A stretch of 64,000 nt of DNA from an uncultured Litoreibacter sp. (GTDB lineage Bacteria; Pseudomonadota; Alphaproteobacteria; Rhodobacterales; Rhodobacteraceae): positions 1,230,001-1,294,000 of the forward strand of contig CANLUY010000001.1 of NCBI GenBank assembly GCA_947494435.1, written 5' to 3'. The translations under genes were made by a program, and so were the position numbers. Below, piece by piece: positions 3,613 through 37,044 of the stretch. The stretch's first letter is position 1. Each line of letters opens with the position of its first letter. The notes beneath the pieces are model-generated. The model saw only the letters and a list, made by a program, of their open reading frames with translations, was not told the DNA's origin and searched no databases.

Positions 3613-3688
3613 GCCTCAATAGCTCAGCTGGTAGAGCAGGTCCTTCGTAAGGACAAGGTCGGGGGTTCGAGTCCCTCTTGAGGCACCA
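3613..3688 (+). tRNA. tRNA-Thr (anticodon CGT)
   Basis: A complete cloverleaf can be folded. The acceptor arms GCCTCAA and TTGAGGC pair fully. The D arm is GCTC/GAGC. The anticodon loop TTCGTAA gives anticodon CGT. The variable loop is 5 nt, and the T arm GGGGG/CCCTC closes a TTCGAGT loop. The discriminator A is followed by an encoded CCA at 3686-3688. The first pair of the anticodon stem (G-A) is a mismatch, which is tolerated. It is a single gene, not part of an rRNA operon. Confidence 0.96.
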
Positions 3689-3939
3689 TTTTCAGCCGCG
3701 GAAATACCTCAACTGAGATGCCAAACCCAAGGTGAACTTGATTGGCCTTAAGCAGAAAAACAGCGGCACTCGTAGTTGAATACAAGAGTTGTGGAGCAGC
3801 GCTATTGTGTTTGTATTGCAAACGATTTGTGTTGCGATTGTTTACAATTTGTTAGTTGACCAGCTCACCGAGCTCATGCGAGTGTGAATTTTTAGTTAAT
3901 GCGCGGATTCTCGCGTACCAACTTTAACGAGGGGAAAGT

Positions 3940-5100
3940 ATGAAAAATCACATTTTTACTAGCGCAATTGCTGCGTTGCTATTTACTGGCGCGGCAGACG
4001 CTTCTCATAACCGCGGTTCGGTTCTTATACCGAGCATCGATGCAAATGGTGTTTTGACCGTCGAAGCTACATCGTTCTGGCGAACATCGTCGGTGGACCG
4101 AGTTCGTAGGGTGACTATTACGCCCCCAGGTGCCTCGGGGACAAATTTCAATATGACGCAGACCACGACCGATACATCGGACACGAGGTTCACGCGCACT
4201 GTGACGACGACTTCCACTACTCTTTCTGGTGGAGCAGGTCTCTATACCATCAGTTGGGGTAGCTGTTGCCGGGTCGCTGGTGCTCAAGGCACTAACAGCG
4301 GTGCTAACATGGGAACAACGTCTACGATCTATTGGGACGGGCAGAGCGCGACCAAACCGATTACATTCGACATCCTGAATATCCAACCGAACGTTCTTCG
4401 CAACGCATCGTATTCCGACAATCTGGACGCGACATCTGACGATGGCGATATGCTCACTTTCGATGACTCCGTTCTTACGACTGGAATCACATCGCAAGCA
4501 CCTGGTTATGCTATTGACGGTACAGGTCAGATTACAATCGATGCGGCCTCGACGGCCGGATATACGGATAATTCCAATTCCAGGAATGTAGGTGCCGACG
4601 TGGCCTTTGCTGGTCAAATTAATGCATCTGATGGGACCCGCCAGACCGGCTCTGTTCAGTTCGACTGGATGTTTGATGGCACAGACAGCGCCACCAATCA
4701 GCCCCCGACTGTACAAGACGTTGTGATCAACGCCACTGCTGGTAGCACGATCAACCAATTGATCACGGCAGACGATCCAAACTCTGGCGATACCGTTACA
4801 TTGAGCTTCCTTGGCTTTACCGGCCCAGGAGGAAGCATTGCTGGTTCGACATTTGTGCCTGGTATGTCAGTCAATCCAGCCGACGGAACGTTCAGCTGGG
4901 ATTCAACTGGATTTGCCGCAGGAACCTATATCGCGACTTTCGGCGCAACAGATGGCAGCTTGACCGATCAAGGTACGCTGACCATCAATCTGACCGACGG
5001 TGGTGGAATGACACCAGTACCGTTGCCGGCGGGCATTGTGCTCCTCGGAACAGCGCTGGTTGGCTTTGGTGTAGCAGGACGTCGTCGTAGAAAAGACTAA
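3940..5100 (+). CDS. Secreted protein with VPLPA-CTERM sorting signal
   Basis: A 386-residue exported protein. The N-terminus has a Sec signal peptide (Lys, then a hydrophobic run, cleavage near AADA/S at about residue 22). The middle has no family I recognise and contains a vicinal Cys pair near residue 110. Residues about 250-350 look like a cadherin/Ig-type beta-sandwich (NQPPTV start, DDPN, NPADGTFSW). The C-terminus carries VPLPAG, a hydrophobic helix and a final RRRRK cluster. This is the VPLPA-CTERM tripartite signal, which by family knowledge is processed by an exosortase-type transpeptidase, so the protein is likely sorted to the outer surface or exopolymer. No exosortase gene is in this window. 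A strong GAGGGGAAAG ribosome site precedes the ATG, and a good terminator follows. Confidence 0.8.
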   Translation: MKNHIFTSAIAALLFTGAADASHNRGSVLIPSIDANGVLTVEATSFWRTSSVDRVRRVTITPPGASGTNFNMTQTTTDTSDTRFTRTVTTTSTTLSGGAGLYTISWGSCCRVAGAQGTNSGANMGTTSTIYWDGQSATKPITFDILNIQPNVLRNASYSDNLDATSDDGDMLTFDDSVLTTGITSQAPGYAIDGTGQITIDAASTAGYTDNSNSRNVGADVAFAGQINASDGTRQTGSVQFDWMFDGTDSATNQPPTVQDVVINATAGSTINQLITADDPNSGDTVTLSFLGFTGPGGSIAGSTFVPGMSVNPADGTFSWDSTGFAAGTYIATFGATDGSLTDQGTLTINLTDGGGMTPVPLPAGIVLLGTALVGFGVAGRRRRKD

Positions 5101-5125
5101 CGCGTCATCGCACGAAAAAATTGGA

Positions 5126-5157
5126 GGGGGTGAATTTCTAATTTGCCCCCTTTTTTT
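5126..5157 (+). terminator. Rho-independent terminator after the VPLPA-CTERM gene
   Basis: GGGGGTGAAT and ATTTGCCCCC form a 10-bp stem (two G-T wobbles) around a 5-nt TTCTA loop, followed by seven T. It lies 25 bases after the stop codon of the gene ending at 5100. Confidence 0.88.
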
Positions 5158-5291
5158 ATTGTCGTCAGCAATGTGATGCTAACGCCTGTCGCGTACCACG
5201 AGCCACCGTTTGATCGTTCTTGCGCTGCTTTGCCTTTGATGATCGACTAGCTTTAACAAATTTCTTTTCCATTATGAGTGAGGCATCGCAC

Positions 5292-7844
5292 ATGTCCCGT
5301 AGCCTGATCACCCCTGTCGCAATTGTTCTCTTGTCCGTTGGCGTAGCGCTCGGGCCGACCGCACGTGTTGAAGCGCGCACCATTACATTGGAAAACTCGC
5401 AGAACTTCTTTGGCGAAGATAATTTTAACTGGCTGTTGTCTCCGGACGTTCTGGCCCCTCAGTCGGGCCAAAGCGATCCTGCAGCACTAGCAATATTATC
5501 AGATCTCATGTCCAAAGATGATCCGCGCGCAGGTCAGGTGCTTAAAAACTACCTAGGGCGTTTTCCAAATGATGCGGCCGCCTTTGATCTGGCTGGCGTC
5601 TACCTGATGGATCAAGGCAACTTTGATGAGGCTATCAGTTCATTCCAGAAAGCGCTGGTTCTTACTCCCTTAAACGGATGGCTGCGCGCCAAGCTCGGTA
5701 TTGCTCTCCTGCGCCGCGAACGATTTGATGTTGCCGAGTCGGAATTGACAAAGTCGCTGGAACTGGAGCCGGAAAACCCACTTGCCCGCCGTGGTTTGGC
5801 GCGTTTGGCTGCGATGCAGGACGATTTGCCGACGGCAATTCTACATTCTGAACGAGCGCTGCGCGCTTTCGGCCTCCCGCGCAATACAGTCAATCAGGCG
5901 CATTTCGATCTTGCTGGTTATTACAGTGCTGTTGGGCGCAATATTGGTGTACTGGATTTGTTGCGCCCCGCTGCTACAAACCCGAATCTGGCTATCCCAG
6001 ACGATGCCCGCATTGAATTGATGGGCCGTTTTCTGGATGCGGCAATGGCTGCAAACCGGCCTAAAGATGCTCGATTTGCCTATGACAGCATGGCCGCTGT
6101 TATTGATACGAGCCACCCGTCAATTATGCTAAGTCAGGCGCGTCTACAACGCCTCGAAAAGGATTACGACGGCTCCTTCGCGACGCTTGAATCCCTTGCG
6201 GCCAGCTTTCCGCAGCTTGAATCCCAGATAGAGCCCGACCGGGCTGTAACGCTCGGAGCTGCGGGGCGACACGACGAGGCGGCTGAGCTTTGGTGGGACA
6301 TTGCCCGGGACAAACCCGAGGGCGAAGATACTGCCTTTTTTAGGGCTGCTCTCGAAGCGCGCATTTCTGCGGGTGCTTCTGATATGGCCATTGAAGAAGT
6401 GACGACCCTTGCTTTGAATGCCGCGGATCGGAGTGACCTCCAGCTGCTTGCAATTGAACTGTTAGGGAAGGCAGGGGCCTCGGACAAAGCGCTTGAGATG
6501 GCACGTGTGATGACAGGCGATCACCCTGACAACGCAGAAGCTTGGCGGATGTTGGGTATCTTGGCCAAGGGCACAGGTGATGATGCGTTGGGCCGTTCCG
6601 CACTGGAAACGTCGCTTGAACTAAACCCCAAAGAGCCAACCACTTGGCTCACCCTCGCGGGTACAATCCACGGCCATGGTTCCTATGTCGGTGCCGGACA
6701 CATCGACAGTTCTGGTCACGACGAGGTTGAGACGCTTCTGAAAGATGCTATCGCTGCCAACCCAACAGCTTCCGAACTCTATGCCGAACTTGGCCTTATG
6801 TATCTCAGCGATGGTCGGCCTGAGGACTCTATTGAAATGTTCGATGCGGCAGTTCTCCACAACCCCGCCCATATGGCAGGGCTGTCCCTTGGTGCGATTG
6901 CGCGCGCTGACATTAGTCAGGAGTTGGATGTGGCTCTGGCCATGATTGACCGGGCCAGTGCTATGGCACCGGATGAGGCCGTAAATCAAGACATCATGGG
7001 CTGGGTTTTGGTGAGGCAGGGCGCACTTCTCGACGGACTTGCGCTGCTGGAACAAGCGGCGTCTTCAGCGCCGGATGATGTGACCATTCAATACCATTTG
7101 GGTGTTGGCTATCAAATGATGGACCAACCTGAACGTGCAAGCCAGCATCTGCTCGCTGCGTTGGCAGGTCCAAACTACAATCATAACGTCACAGATACGC
7201 GCGCTCGTTACTTGGCGCTGAATCCTGGCGATGAAGTTGACGTCCAGGTCAATCGTATTGATGACGGGTTCGAAGGTGAGTCGATTGGAACGATCACAAT
7301 CGCAACATCTGAAGACGGGCTGCGTCTGACCGGTAACCTAGAAGGACTGGAGCCGGGATCCTACGCGTCCCACATTCACGAGTATGCCAATTGTGAGCCG
7401 GGTCCTGGCGGGCCGGGATCATTGGCAGGCGGTCACTATGGCCACCACGGACATCATGGACACGGCATGGCGCCGAAGGAGGGAGATGATCCGCACGCGG
7501 CACACGACATTTCCAACATGACGGATCAGGCGGTGGTGAAGGCTGATCCACACGCGGGGCATGACATGTCTGCTATGAAAAAAGACGATAACAAAGCGGC
7601 ACAGGATCCGCACGCAGGTCATAATATGGCTGCCATGCAACAAGGCCAGAGCATGGAAGATAACCCACTGCCGACGGGCGATCTTGAGAGTTTTGTCTTT
7701 GATGTCTCTGGTACTTCCGCGACGGTGTTTGAAAGTGCCCGACTGACACTTGATGAGGTGCGTGGTCGCACAATCATGTTGCACGTCGGTGCTGATGTGG
7801 AAGGAAAAAGTGGACCTAAAATCGCTTGCGGCATCATCAAATAA
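5292..7844 (+). CDS. Exported TPR protein fused to a Cu/Zn superoxide dismutase-like domain with His/Met-rich insert
   Basis: An 850-residue protein. ATG 5292 is chosen because GTGAGG lies 8 bases upstream; an in-frame TTG (5220) and ATG (5274) lack ribosome sites. A signal peptide covers about residues 1-30 (hydrophobic run, then VEA-R). Residues about 45-640 are TPR-like helical repeats. Residues about 645-850 match SodC landmarks: HIHE with His694 and His696, Cys701 (disulfide partner), GGHY with His715, then near the end LTLDE, His831 in LHVGAD, and Cys846 in the IACG motif. The usual active-site Arg before IACG appears to be Lys here. Between His715 and about residue 790, where the zinc loop would be, there is a His-rich run and three DPHA(A/G)H-xxxM repeats (residues 733, 752, 772) typical of copper-binding sequences. 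It is probably a periplasmic metal-binding or superoxide/copper-handling protein. Catalytic activity is uncertain. Confidence 0.8.
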   Translation: MSRSLITPVAIVLLSVGVALGPTARVEARTITLENSQNFFGEDNFNWLLSPDVLAPQSGQSDPAALAILSDLMSKDDPRAGQVLKNYLGRFPNDAAAFDLAGVYLMDQGNFDEAISSFQKALVLTPLNGWLRAKLGIALLRRERFDVAESELTKSLELEPENPLARRGLARLAAMQDDLPTAILHSERALRAFGLPRNTVNQAHFDLAGYYSAVGRNIGVLDLLRPAATNPNLAIPDDARIELMGRFLDAAMAANRPKDARFAYDSMAAVIDTSHPSIMLSQARLQRLEKDYDGSFATLESLAASFPQLESQIEPDRAVTLGAAGRHDEAAELWWDIARDKPEGEDTAFFRAALEARISAGASDMAIEEVTTLALNAADRSDLQLLAIELLGKAGASDKALEMARVMTGDHPDNAEAWRMLGILAKGTGDDALGRSALETSLELNPKEPTTWLTLAGTIHGHGSYVGAGHIDSSGHDEVETLLKDAIAANPTASELYAELGLMYLSDGRPEDSIEMFDAAVLHNPAHMAGLSLGAIARADISQELDVALAMIDRASAMAPDEAVNQDIMGWVLVRQGALLDGLALLEQAASSAPDDVTIQYHLGVGYQMMDQPERASQHLLAALAGPNYNHNVTDTRARYLALNPGDEVDVQVNRIDDGFEGESIGTITIATSEDGLRLTGNLEGLEPGSYASHIHEYANCEPGPGGPGSLAGGHYGHHGHHGHGMAPKEGDDPHAAHDISNMTDQAVVKADPHAGHDMSAMKKDDNKAAQDPHAGHNMAAMQQGQSMEDNPLPTGDLESFVFDVSGTSATVFESARLTLDEVRGRTIMLHVGADVEGKSGPKIACGIIK

Positions 7845-8106
7845 ACGCCTGCGTCGGTATGGACTGAGCAAGCTGTCAAAGTGCCTTAGTTGATCAGCTC
7901 CTTTACACTTTAGGGAGAAGAGGAAACTTGGGGTCCTCTCACAAAGGTATGGTCGCAAGCAGGAGGATGGCTGGTTCTTGCTTGAGCTCCCCAATGCTTT
8001 TTCGGCATAGCTTGCGTGTTGGTTTGTCTTTCCGAAGGGAATGACTTCACAACCTGACCAACTCTGGCCAGCTGAAATGACGTCTGCCGTATCGCGGCAC
8101 TAGTCC

Positions 8107-8853
8107 TCAAAGCATTCGAATTGCGTCCGGTTCCACAGCGAGAACGTAACCCTTGCGCGCTATGTTTTTGATCAATAGCTCGCTCATCAATTGATTGCCG
8201 AGGTGATCGCGTAGCCTTTTGATCCGTACCGCGCCCGCGGCTTCATCGCAGTCGGTAGAAGGCTTGCCTGAGATCACACTCTCAATCTCAACCCCTGACA
8301 AGATGTCATCGTCCAATCGGGCCTCTGCAAGGACGGAGAGGGTCTCCAGTGCGGCTTCTGTGAGTTTGAAGTCCATATCATTGATTTGAACCAAACGCTC
8401 TCCTCGATGAACTGTGAGGGAGTTCACTTGAATACCCGATTTCTCAACCTCCGCCATGCGCCGTGCCAGACCAACTAACGAGACAAGGGAGACCAATGTC
8501 GCGATCAGCAGCGCCGTCGCAAAAACCATCAAGACGAAAATGATAAACCGGTAGGAGGCGAGAGTTTCCGAGAAGGCCGTGCCCGACCCTGCTAGAATTT
8601 CCAGCAATTTGATCTCTGCGTTTCCAGTAAGAGTGTCGTTTTCAATGAATAGCCGCTCTACTCGCATATTGAATTCGTTGGCGTCAGGCAGGTTGAGAAA
8701 CAAAACTAGTGCCGCGATCAGCAAGATTGCGACGATTGCGACCACGCCAACCACAATAACACGGGCAGGCGTCAACTTAGAAGCTGAGGAAGTAGCGTCC
8801 GGCACTTGCTTTCCTTCCGGCGAGACCTTGGTCGTTAAAGACTGAGAGGACAT
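8107..8853 (-). CDS. Membrane-anchored winged-helix protein (ToxR-like, C-terminal DNA-binding domain)
   Basis: About 248 residues if started at ATG 8853. An in-frame GTG at 8805 has a better ribosome site (GGAAGG 6-7 bases before) and would give 232 residues, so the start is uncertain. Two hydrophobic helices are visible at about residues 30-53 and 103-128, with a roughly 50-residue loop between them that should face the periplasm. After a short linker, residues about 150-248 look like an OmpR/PhoB-type winged helix: a beta strand, then FKLTEAALETLSVLAE, and a final GNQLMSELLIKNIARKGYVL that matches the recognition helix and wing. The order (membrane first, DNA-binding last) is opposite to ToxR/CadC. 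The 5' end overlaps the preceding small secreted-protein gene, so the two are co-transcribed. The target genes cannot be read from the sequence. Confidence 0.62.
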   Translation of the reverse strand: MSSQSLTTKVSPEGKQVPDATSSASKLTPARVIVVGVVAIVAILLIAALVLFLNLPDANEFNMRVERLFIENDTLTGNAEIKLLEILAGSGTAFSETLASYRFIIFVLMVFATALLIATLVSLVSLVGLARRMAEVEKSGIQVNSLTVHRGERLVQINDMDFKLTEAALETLSVLAEARLDDDILSGVEIESVISGKPSTDCDEAAGAVRIKRLRDHLGNQLMSELLIKNIARKGYVLAVEPDAIRML

Positions 8854-36129: not shown

Positions 36130-37044
36130 ATGCTGGAACTAAACACTGGAAATGCTGCCCCTGCGGGCGATCTTATCAAGGATGGGTCAGAGATGACGTT
36201 CATGCAGGACGTGATTGAGGCCTCGCAAGATGTTCCAGTCATCGTTGATTTTTGGGCCCCATGGTGCGGTCCGTGTAAAACACTTGGTCCTGCGCTAGAG
36301 GCTGCAGTCACGGCAGCCAAAGGCGCTGTGAAAATGGTCAAACTCGATGTTGATCAAAACCAAGGCATCGCGGGCCAGCTGCAAATTCAATCGATTCCAA
36401 CGGTTTATGCGTTCTACCAAGGCAAGCCAGTTGACGCGTTTCAGGGCGCTTTGCCGCCGAGCGAAATCACAGCATTTGTCGAAAAGCTCGTCACTTTGGG
36501 CGGCGGAGAGGTCGATGGAGGTTTAGGTGAGGCGCTTGAAGCGGCGGAAGCGATGCTGGAAGAGGGAGCGGCTGTTGATGCCGCACAGACTTTTGCCGCT
36601 GTCTTGGGTGAAGAGCCGTCGAATGCACTTGCTTATAGCGGGTTGATCCGCGCCAATCTTGCTTTGGAGGAAGTCGACCAAGCTGAGGCGATGGTTGCAA
36701 ATGTCCCCGATGACATCGCTGCGACGCCTGAGTTTGAAACGGCTAAAGCGCAACTTGATCTGCTGCGACAAGCTCAGGATGCAGGTCCGTTGGCTGATCT
36801 TCAGGCCGCGCTTGATGCCGATGAAAGTAATTTACAAGCCCGCTACGATCTTGCGATTGCAATGCATGGCGCGGGGGATGCGGAAGGTGCGGTGGATCAT
36901 TTACTTGAGCTGTTCCGCCGCGACAGAGAGTGGAATGATGGCGCCGCAAAGACGCAGCTGTTCACAGTATTTGAAGCGTTGAAACCGGAAGATCCGATTG
37001 CCTTGAATGGTCGTCGTCGATTGTCATCAATGATATTTGCCTGA
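36130..37044 (+). CDS. Thioredoxin-TPR co-chaperone (CnoX/YbbN family)
   Basis: A 304-residue protein with an N-terminal thioredoxin domain (WAPWCGPCKTLGP, active-site CGPC near residue 45) and C-terminal TPR-like helices (about residues 125-300). The CnoX/YbbN family protects proteins under oxidative stress as a chaperedoxin and can act without redox activity. Here the CxxC is intact. It is the first gene of a likely operon with the Lon-N protein and the Trm112-like protein (gaps of 26 and -4 bases). Confidence 0.85.
   Translation: MLELNTGNAAPAGDLIKDGSEMTFMQDVIEASQDVPVIVDFWAPWCGPCKTLGPALEAAVTAAKGAVKMVKLDVDQNQGIAGQLQIQSIPTVYAFYQGKPVDAFQGALPPSEITAFVEKLVTLGGGEVDGGLGEALEAAEAMLEEGAAVDAAQTFAAVLGEEPSNALAYSGLIRANLALEEVDQAEAMVANVPDDIAATPEFETAKAQLDLLRQAQDAGPLADLQAALDADESNLQARYDLAIAMHGAGDAEGAVDHLLELFRRDREWNDGAAKTQLFTVFEALKPEDPIALNGRRRLSSMIFA

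Follow-up and report, generated by a model that had tools for sequence, protein, structure and literature searches.

The window analysed here is a stretch of 64,000 nucleotides from an uncultured Litoreibacter species (assembly GCA_947494435.1, contig CANLUY010000001.1, positions 1,230,001 to 1,294,000 of the forward strand). It was found that a single unbroken open reading frame (ORF) at 5292..7844 on its plus strand encodes a tetratricopeptide repeat (TPR) protein fused to a domain of the SodC type, the bacterial Cu/Zn superoxide dismutase (SOD), and that this domain retains its copper ligands while lacking the canonical zinc site. The frame is open from a TTG at 5220 to 7844, and the favoured start is the ATG at 5292, which has a GAGG 8 nucleotides upstream and gives a protein of 850 amino acids. 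The N-terminus was judged by eye to be hydrophobic and signal-peptide-like. In Pfam, many TPR models match the protein, with the best listed stretches inside residues 79-625, and the Sod_Cu model matches significantly (E-value 9.9e-16; 58.8 bits, where 28.9 is the cut-off). The Sod_Cu match is split in two stretches because an insert interrupts the domain. Among the structures in the PDB, the best phmmer match of the C-terminal 224 residues is the Neisseria meningitidis SodC (2aqp, 4e-16). The fusion gene carries the sole Sod_Cu match of the window genome, both stretches in one frame. Together with a modelled barrel, these matches uphold the TPR-SodC fusion proposed in the original prediction, which had been made from the sequence without database searches. 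Chance similarity to SodC is ruled out by the Pfam score, the PDB sequence match, and the fold match. An assembly join or frameshift between the two parts, which the original prediction had named among the findings that would refute it, was rejected because three full-length relatives have the same TPR-SodC junction, and the window gene has neither a frameshift nor a stop.

The TPR solenoid (5478..7163, residues 63-624) was delimited with the Pfam TPR models and AlphaFold2, in which it forms 32 helices (about 16 pairs) with confidence scores (pLDDT) of 40-88 in blocks of ten. TPR helices were predicted earlier up to residue 640; the helices are present, but they end nearer residue 624. The full-length AlphaFold2 model, made with six SodC rows in the alignment (pLDDT 56.6, predicted TM score 0.35), has the helices and then a separate barrel at about 648-850, the relative placement of the domains being unreliable. 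The SodC-like domain (7233..7841, residues 648-850) is assigned by Pfam Sod_Cu, the PDB matches, and the fold. Its fold was assessed by modelling the C-terminal 217 residues with AlphaFold2 on an alignment of seven rows, all of them SodCs found in viral contigs; because of these rows, the model partly depends on the sequence result. The mean pLDDT is 60.2, with most of the barrel at 70-88 and model residues 87-160, the insert, at about 30. The insert is thus modelled as disordered. In Foldseek, bacterial SodCs come top (Escherichia coli 1eso at 5.5e-10), and VIA-align superposes the model on the Photobacterium leiognathi SodC (1oal) with a Z of 19.0 and a root-mean-square deviation of 2.4 over 136 residues, so the overlay proposed in the original prediction does contain the barrel.

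The full-length relatives have an identical layout and were found in genome G207, in CP049029.1 (Rhodobacteraceae bacterium SC52), and in NZ_CP083545.1 (Jannaschia sp. W003), the latter two among 72,556 plasmid records. In the four-row alignment, they are 54, 45, and 36% identical to the window protein; the pairwise values are 53% over 827 columns for G207, 43.7% over 97% for CP049029.1, and 33.6% over 100% for NZ_CP083545.1. The four fusions were compared with 24 stand-alone SodCs, mostly the best-scoring family and phylum profile matches and not a random sample. The anchors for the loop measurements, GD[LM] and [RK]xxC, are present in all 28 sequences. Down to 36% identity, none of the fusions has lost any of the four copper His or either of the two Cys, for which a disulfide bond is predicted. 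In the window protein, the alignment places the copper ligands at His694 and His696 in the HIHE motif (7371..7379), at His715 (7434..7436), the third ligand and the bridging His of CuZn-SODs, and at His831 (7782..7784); the Cys residues, invariant in all four, are Cys701 (7392..7394) and Cys846 (7827..7829). The landmarks listed in the original prediction (HIHE, GGHY, LHVGAD, IACG, and both Cys) are all as described, and the metal-handling role suggested there is likely.

The zinc side of the site is different. The zinc loop has 15-18 residues in all 24 stand-alone SodCs, as against 78, 64, 57, and 40 in the four fusions. The 78-residue insert of the window protein (7437..7670) contains 11 His and 7 Met; across the fusions the inserts carry 3-11 His and 4-7 Met, and their length and sequence vary while the His/Met richness is constant. 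At the position of the zinc ligand His80, the fusions have Pro in 4/4 cases, and the stand-alone SodCs have His in 22 and Asp in 2. Asp83 is present in 28/28 sequences and His63 is kept in the fusions, while the loop bearing His71 is replaced. In the window protein, Pro794 and the retained Asp797 (Asp83) lie at 7671..7682. Judged from the sequence, the canonical zinc site (His63, His71, His80, and Asp83) is incomplete in the fusions. Can the insert rebuild it? If its His residues replaced His71 and His80, a zinc site with His715 and Asp797 would be restored and the domain would still be a CuZn enzyme. All four fusions retain Asp83 and the bridging His, the inserts offer 3-11 His, and the His757 column, Ala761, and Met762 of the insert are invariant in the four-row alignment. 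However, the His757 column falls in a part of the alignment with many gaps and disappears once the G923 sequence (see below) is added, His80 is Pro throughout, and the insert is modelled as disordered. This explanation is quite improbable, and a copper-only domain seems preferable.

The insert of the window protein has three DPHAxH[DN][MI] repeats. Similar repeats form the N-terminus of CopB (PF05275, 294.1 bits) in genome G709 (locus L090), and this gene adjoins a multicopper-oxidase-like gene, the latter named by eye. CopB-type repeats are thought to gather copper. The literature search on His-rich SodC extensions found nothing relevant among the papers listed. On the other side of the site, the distance from the copper ligand His120 to the catalytic Arg position is 14-18 residues in the stand-alone SodCs and 11, 11, 8, and 11 in the fusions, a shortening gauged against this set and not against the Candida albicans copper-only enzyme SOD5. 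The catalytic Arg itself is present in 24/24 stand-alone SodCs and replaced by Lys in 4/4 fusions, as the original prediction had noticed for the window protein in suggesting that the enzyme may be inactive or altered; there, the 11-residue electrostatic loop and Lys843 lie at 7785..7820. A further cluster was found in the TPR part, where a non-helical loop (6669..6719), with the pattern and spacing H-G-H-x2-Y-x10-H in the window protein, has His460, His462, Tyr465, and His476 invariant in the four-row alignment. Among residues 63-640, 6 of 14 His are invariant, and 3 of these are in this loop, which is possibly an extra metal site.

These features may also be read as a copper buffer without meaningful catalysis, in which the barrel and the His/Met loop sequester envelope copper, the TPR part is a tether, and the Lys and the short loop mark lost catalysis. 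The CopB-like insert within the domain, the conserved changes around the Arg position, and the extra His cluster in the TPR part are all consistent with this. On the other hand, the retention of every copper His and of the disulfide Cys in 4/4 fusions goes beyond the needs of a buffer, and no copper-resistance family was found in the 27 window ORFs scanned with Pfam (of 42 ORFs of at least 230 amino acids, plus shorter ones). I consider the buffer somewhat unlikely. A dead barrel is unlikely, because exactly the copper ligands are kept in 4/4 while the zinc loop varies. A copper-only SOD-like domain is still the preferred reading of the site.

How does the domain compare with known SODs? With bacterial SodCs (PF00080; 2aqp, 1oal, and 1eso) it shares the fold (VIA-align Z of 18-19), the four copper His, the Cys pair, and Asp83; it differs in the Pro at His80, the His/Met insert for the zinc loop, the electrostatic loop of 8-11 rather than 14-18 residues, the Lys, and the TPR fusion. 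The SodC of Mycobacterium tuberculosis (1pzs) is likewise bacterial and matches the fold with a Z of 16.0; it presumably has neither a TPR part nor a comparable insert. It does not bind zinc, and its electrostatic loop is kept (PMC13017621, a 2026 review by Peterson and Culotta). Fungal and animal copper-only SODs have lost the zinc site and have a shortened electrostatic loop; they keep the zinc Asp, with a Glu at another zinc position, and their open-access site is called unique to them in the review (PMC13017621). C. albicans SOD5 and the animal CSRP proteins have in common with the window family the copper site, the kept zinc Asp, the lost zinc site, and the shortened loop (PMC13017621). 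In contrast to them, the window family groups with bacterial SodCs, in a tree without a fungal sequence, and has the Lys, the His/Met insert, and the TPR fusion. No fungal copper-only SOD is named in the 60 entries listed of 156 PDB sequence matches, or in the 50 structure-comparison entries listed; neither list is complete. The resemblance to the fungal and animal copper-only SODs probably arose by convergence.

I performed a survey of the fusion in related genomes; the samples overlap between searches, and the counts are not additive. No full-length match to the fusion was found in 20 other genomes of the genus or 148 other genomes of the family, and the matches listed there are partial (46.2 bits at most), mostly to the TPR part and in a few cases to SodC. 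Of 394 family genomes, 49 have a Sod_Cu match, the window genome included, and a split match in a long frame is seen only in the window genome and G207. The four-row domain profile matches 34 of 390 order genomes at 1e-6, with TPR-SodC fusions again in these two only and, in addition, a stand-alone variant in G923 (described below). The phylum sample of 398 genomes, of which 56 match, yielded no additional recognisable TPR-SodC fusion, some medium-length frames being unread. The unread upstream parts include those of G282 (571 amino acids), G239 (390, with one stop), G023 (385), G983 (372), G971 (341), G949 (330), G867 (329), G190 (328), G236 (315), and G224 (308), among others; these frames span 250-571 amino acids, and a fusion to something shorter could occur there. 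The frames of G065 (1813 amino acids), G107 (510), G058 (477), and G432 (706) were rejected as fusions, as all four look like ordinary secreted SodC ORFs with a frame open upstream by chance, and that of G709 (454) is the CopB mentioned above. Scans of genome contigs with the domain alignment and a two-row full-length alignment confirmed nothing; this absence is uninformative because few exact patterns were used, and relatives exist elsewhere. Scans of viral contigs with the family alignments also confirmed nothing. The TPR-SodC pairing is rare and scattered, and two of the four fusions are on plasmids.

In genome G923, a stand-alone SodC variant of 249 amino acids without TPR was found (L138:7014-7763, minus strand). 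This close relative of the fused domain has a Met-rich insert in the zinc loop, Pro for His80, and Lys for Arg, but a long electrostatic loop of 17 residues, a length counted by eye. In a FastTree phylogeny of SodC cores with the insert removed (29 sequences, midpoint-rooted, no fungal sequence), G923 and the four fusions fall into a single clade with a local support of 0.968, placed among the SodCs of other classes of the phylum (L076-L086) and apart from those of their own family. G923 lies inside the clade beside the Jannaschia domain, and the short electrostatic loop is found within the clade in the four fusions only. Since G923 is nested there, the altered site may have preceded the TPR fusion, or TPR may have been lost in G923.

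Directly upstream of the fusion gene, on the same strand, lies a gene for a VPLPA-CTERM protein of 386 amino acids (3940..5100). The original prediction overlooked this conserved neighbour, as well as the loss of the zinc site, the His/Met insert, and the short electrostatic loop, and its account of the domain was incomplete in these respects. The C-terminus of the window copy matches TIGR03370 with 28.7 bits against a cut-off of 25.35; the two plasmid copies, which were the relatives scanned, are just below it (25.2 for SC52, P0005; 24.1 for Jannaschia, P0006). The window and SC52 copies also have a sub-threshold similarity to SIBA-E_N, the N-terminal domain of the Dictyostelium Sib adhesins. 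A homologue stands directly upstream on the same strand at 4/4 TPR-SodC loci (3940-5100 in the window, L070 4502-5659, L087 8673-9821, and L088 8614-9834), and the relatives are 58, 61, and 47% identical to the window copy. With tblastn, the window copy found 2 of the 72,556 plasmid records, the same two that bear the fusion. Of 388 family genomes, 123 are matched by its four-row profile; among the best-scoring matches listed, full-length ones occur only in the two genomes with the fusion, and the others reach 35.6 bits at most, nearly all at the CTERM end. As the neighbour is kept in 4/4 loci, it is the best candidate for the partner of the TPR part. The best NCBIfam match of the fusion protein is PrsT (TIGR02917), a TPR lipoprotein of PEP-CTERM/XrtA systems, likewise a long TPR protein near a PEP-CTERM-type protein; however, the score is 129.5 bits against a cut-off of 312.2, and the window genome has no exosortase match. 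PrsT presumably has no SodC domain.

Two other explanations involve the upstream protein. In one, the domain and its loop would act as a copper chaperone, passing copper to the partner, perhaps to a Cys-Cys pair (CCR or CCW) that is invariant in the window copy and its three relatives, much as domain II of CCS recognises SOD1. The conserved pairing of the genes and the similarity of the fold to CCS domain II (Z of about 14) are in favour of this, but the partner matched no recognised metal-binding family, and CCS domain II is without the full copper site that is kept in the fusion domain (PMC13017621). A chaperone is therefore very unlikely. In the other, the barrel would be a structural module for adhesion, an Ig-like domain for which copper and superoxide are irrelevant. 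The SodC fold is indeed an Ig-like barrel, and the partner has a sub-threshold match of the Ig type (He_PIG). The retention of the copper ligands and the disulfide Cys across 36-54% identity makes the adhesion module the least probable of the explanations considered. A copper-only SOD-like domain next to the upstream protein remains the preferred reading.

The pair may be mobile. The two-gene unit at 3940-7844 starts right after a tRNA-Thr(cgt) gene at 3613-3688. A HemY homologue was found in 19 other genomes of the genus, of which six were inspected; HemY is followed by tRNA-Thr in 5/6, the exception being L122, where a tRNA was not found. The pair is not evident in the five relatives extending about 9 kb past HemY, L127 being too short and tblastx noisy. 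A horizontal acquisition of the unit, with a gain next to the tRNA gene, is likely. A promoter scan gave 2 sites against 3.1 expected and is uninformative. The Jannaschia pair lies near genes for polysaccharide export, a sugar transferase, a rhomboid-protease (31.3 in the rhombosortase model against a cut-off of 84), and a second VPLPA-CTERM protein. The second gene downstream of TPR-SodC on the Jannaschia W003 plasmid encodes a vanadium-dependent haloperoxidase (L088:13998-16412). Elsewhere in the window, at 36130-37044, a thioredoxin is fused to TPR_20; this second pairing of a redox domain with TPR is presumably of the known CnoX/YbbN type.

I tentatively favour an envelope TPR scaffold by which an SOD-like domain, copper-only and self-loading, would be held at a surface protein. 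From its N-terminus, the fusion protein would be exported into the cell envelope. There, the TPR solenoid may dock on a partner, most likely the upstream VPLPA-CTERM protein to which it is linked at all four loci, and the docking would fix the SodC-type domain beside it. The domain, with a complete copper site and disulfide Cys and without the canonical zinc site, would be fed in cis by the adjacent His/Met-rich loop, which may gather scarce periplasmic copper. Once loaded, it could work as copper-only SODs do and, with its active site more open, dismutate superoxide at the surface of the cell.

Several observations weigh against this reading. The Glu of the fungal Glu/Asp signature (E110/D113) is Pro in 4/4 fusions, the Asp being present, and the PDB profile matches are led by ordinary bacterial CuZn SodCs. 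The set of 24 SodCs leans to canonical enzymes because it consists mostly of best-scoring matches. The Lys in place of the catalytic Arg in every fusion calls for caution on activity, and the reaction may be slowed by the shortened electrostatic loop. In G207 the fusion is not the sole Cu SOD, since an ordinary SodC is also encoded. A terminator-like hairpin with a T run lies between the two genes (5123..5153, plus strand), and one transcript is not assured, although the hairpin is a weak signal (4 such sites in 3680-8150 against 4.6 expected in shuffles). Finally, no exosortase match (PF09721) was found in the window genome, with a control that matched in 1/14, which makes the proposed sorting and anchoring of the partner less certain; the exosortase model TIGR04152 also gave no match there, its control being silent too.

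SodC fusions as such are already known. The D. radiodurans protein DrSOD (9m58/9m59) is an exported SodC joined to a beta-propeller lactonase with a solved structure, and InterPro holds 276 architectures with a SodC domain (PMC12362111, Furukawa and colleagues). Unlike the window protein, DrSOD binds Cu and Zn, its SodC domain is N-terminal, and its other domain is an enzyme (PMC12362111); its fold matches that of the window domain with a Z of 15.6-16.6. The words TPR and tetratricopeptide do not occur in the text of PMC12362111, and the TPR-SodC pairing was not found in the literature searched, which covered few subscription journals. The original prediction held that SodC enzymes normally stand alone and that this pairing had not been described; these searches agree with the latter, but the former was overstated, since fused SodC domains are not new. 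Another D. radiodurans protein, DR_0644, is SOD-like, was called copper-only, and belongs to an S-layer surface complex (PMC9823218); it lacks the catalytic Arg and one copper His, and its copper site is disputed (PMC12362111). Like the domain in the favoured reading, it is SOD-like, has no proper zinc site or catalytic Arg, and is held with other proteins at the surface, but it is a separate subunit and one copper His is missing.

The active site is more interesting than the fusion itself. In its widest form, the proposal combines an independent bacterial copper-only SOD with an open site, a CopB-like copper collector acting in cis, a TPR scaffold for one sorted surface protein, and a mobile two-gene module of Rhodobacterales; this combination is doubtful as a whole. 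Rhodobacterales are mostly marine. Should the domain prove active, zinc loss, an opened copper site, and a copper collector built into the protein would have arisen not only in fungi and animals but also in bacteria, and the family would offer a direct test of which SOD features (zinc, the electrostatic loop, and Arg) catalysis needs. The pairing with one VPLPA-CTERM protein would in turn give a handle on the targets of exported TPR proteins in PEP-CTERM-type systems.

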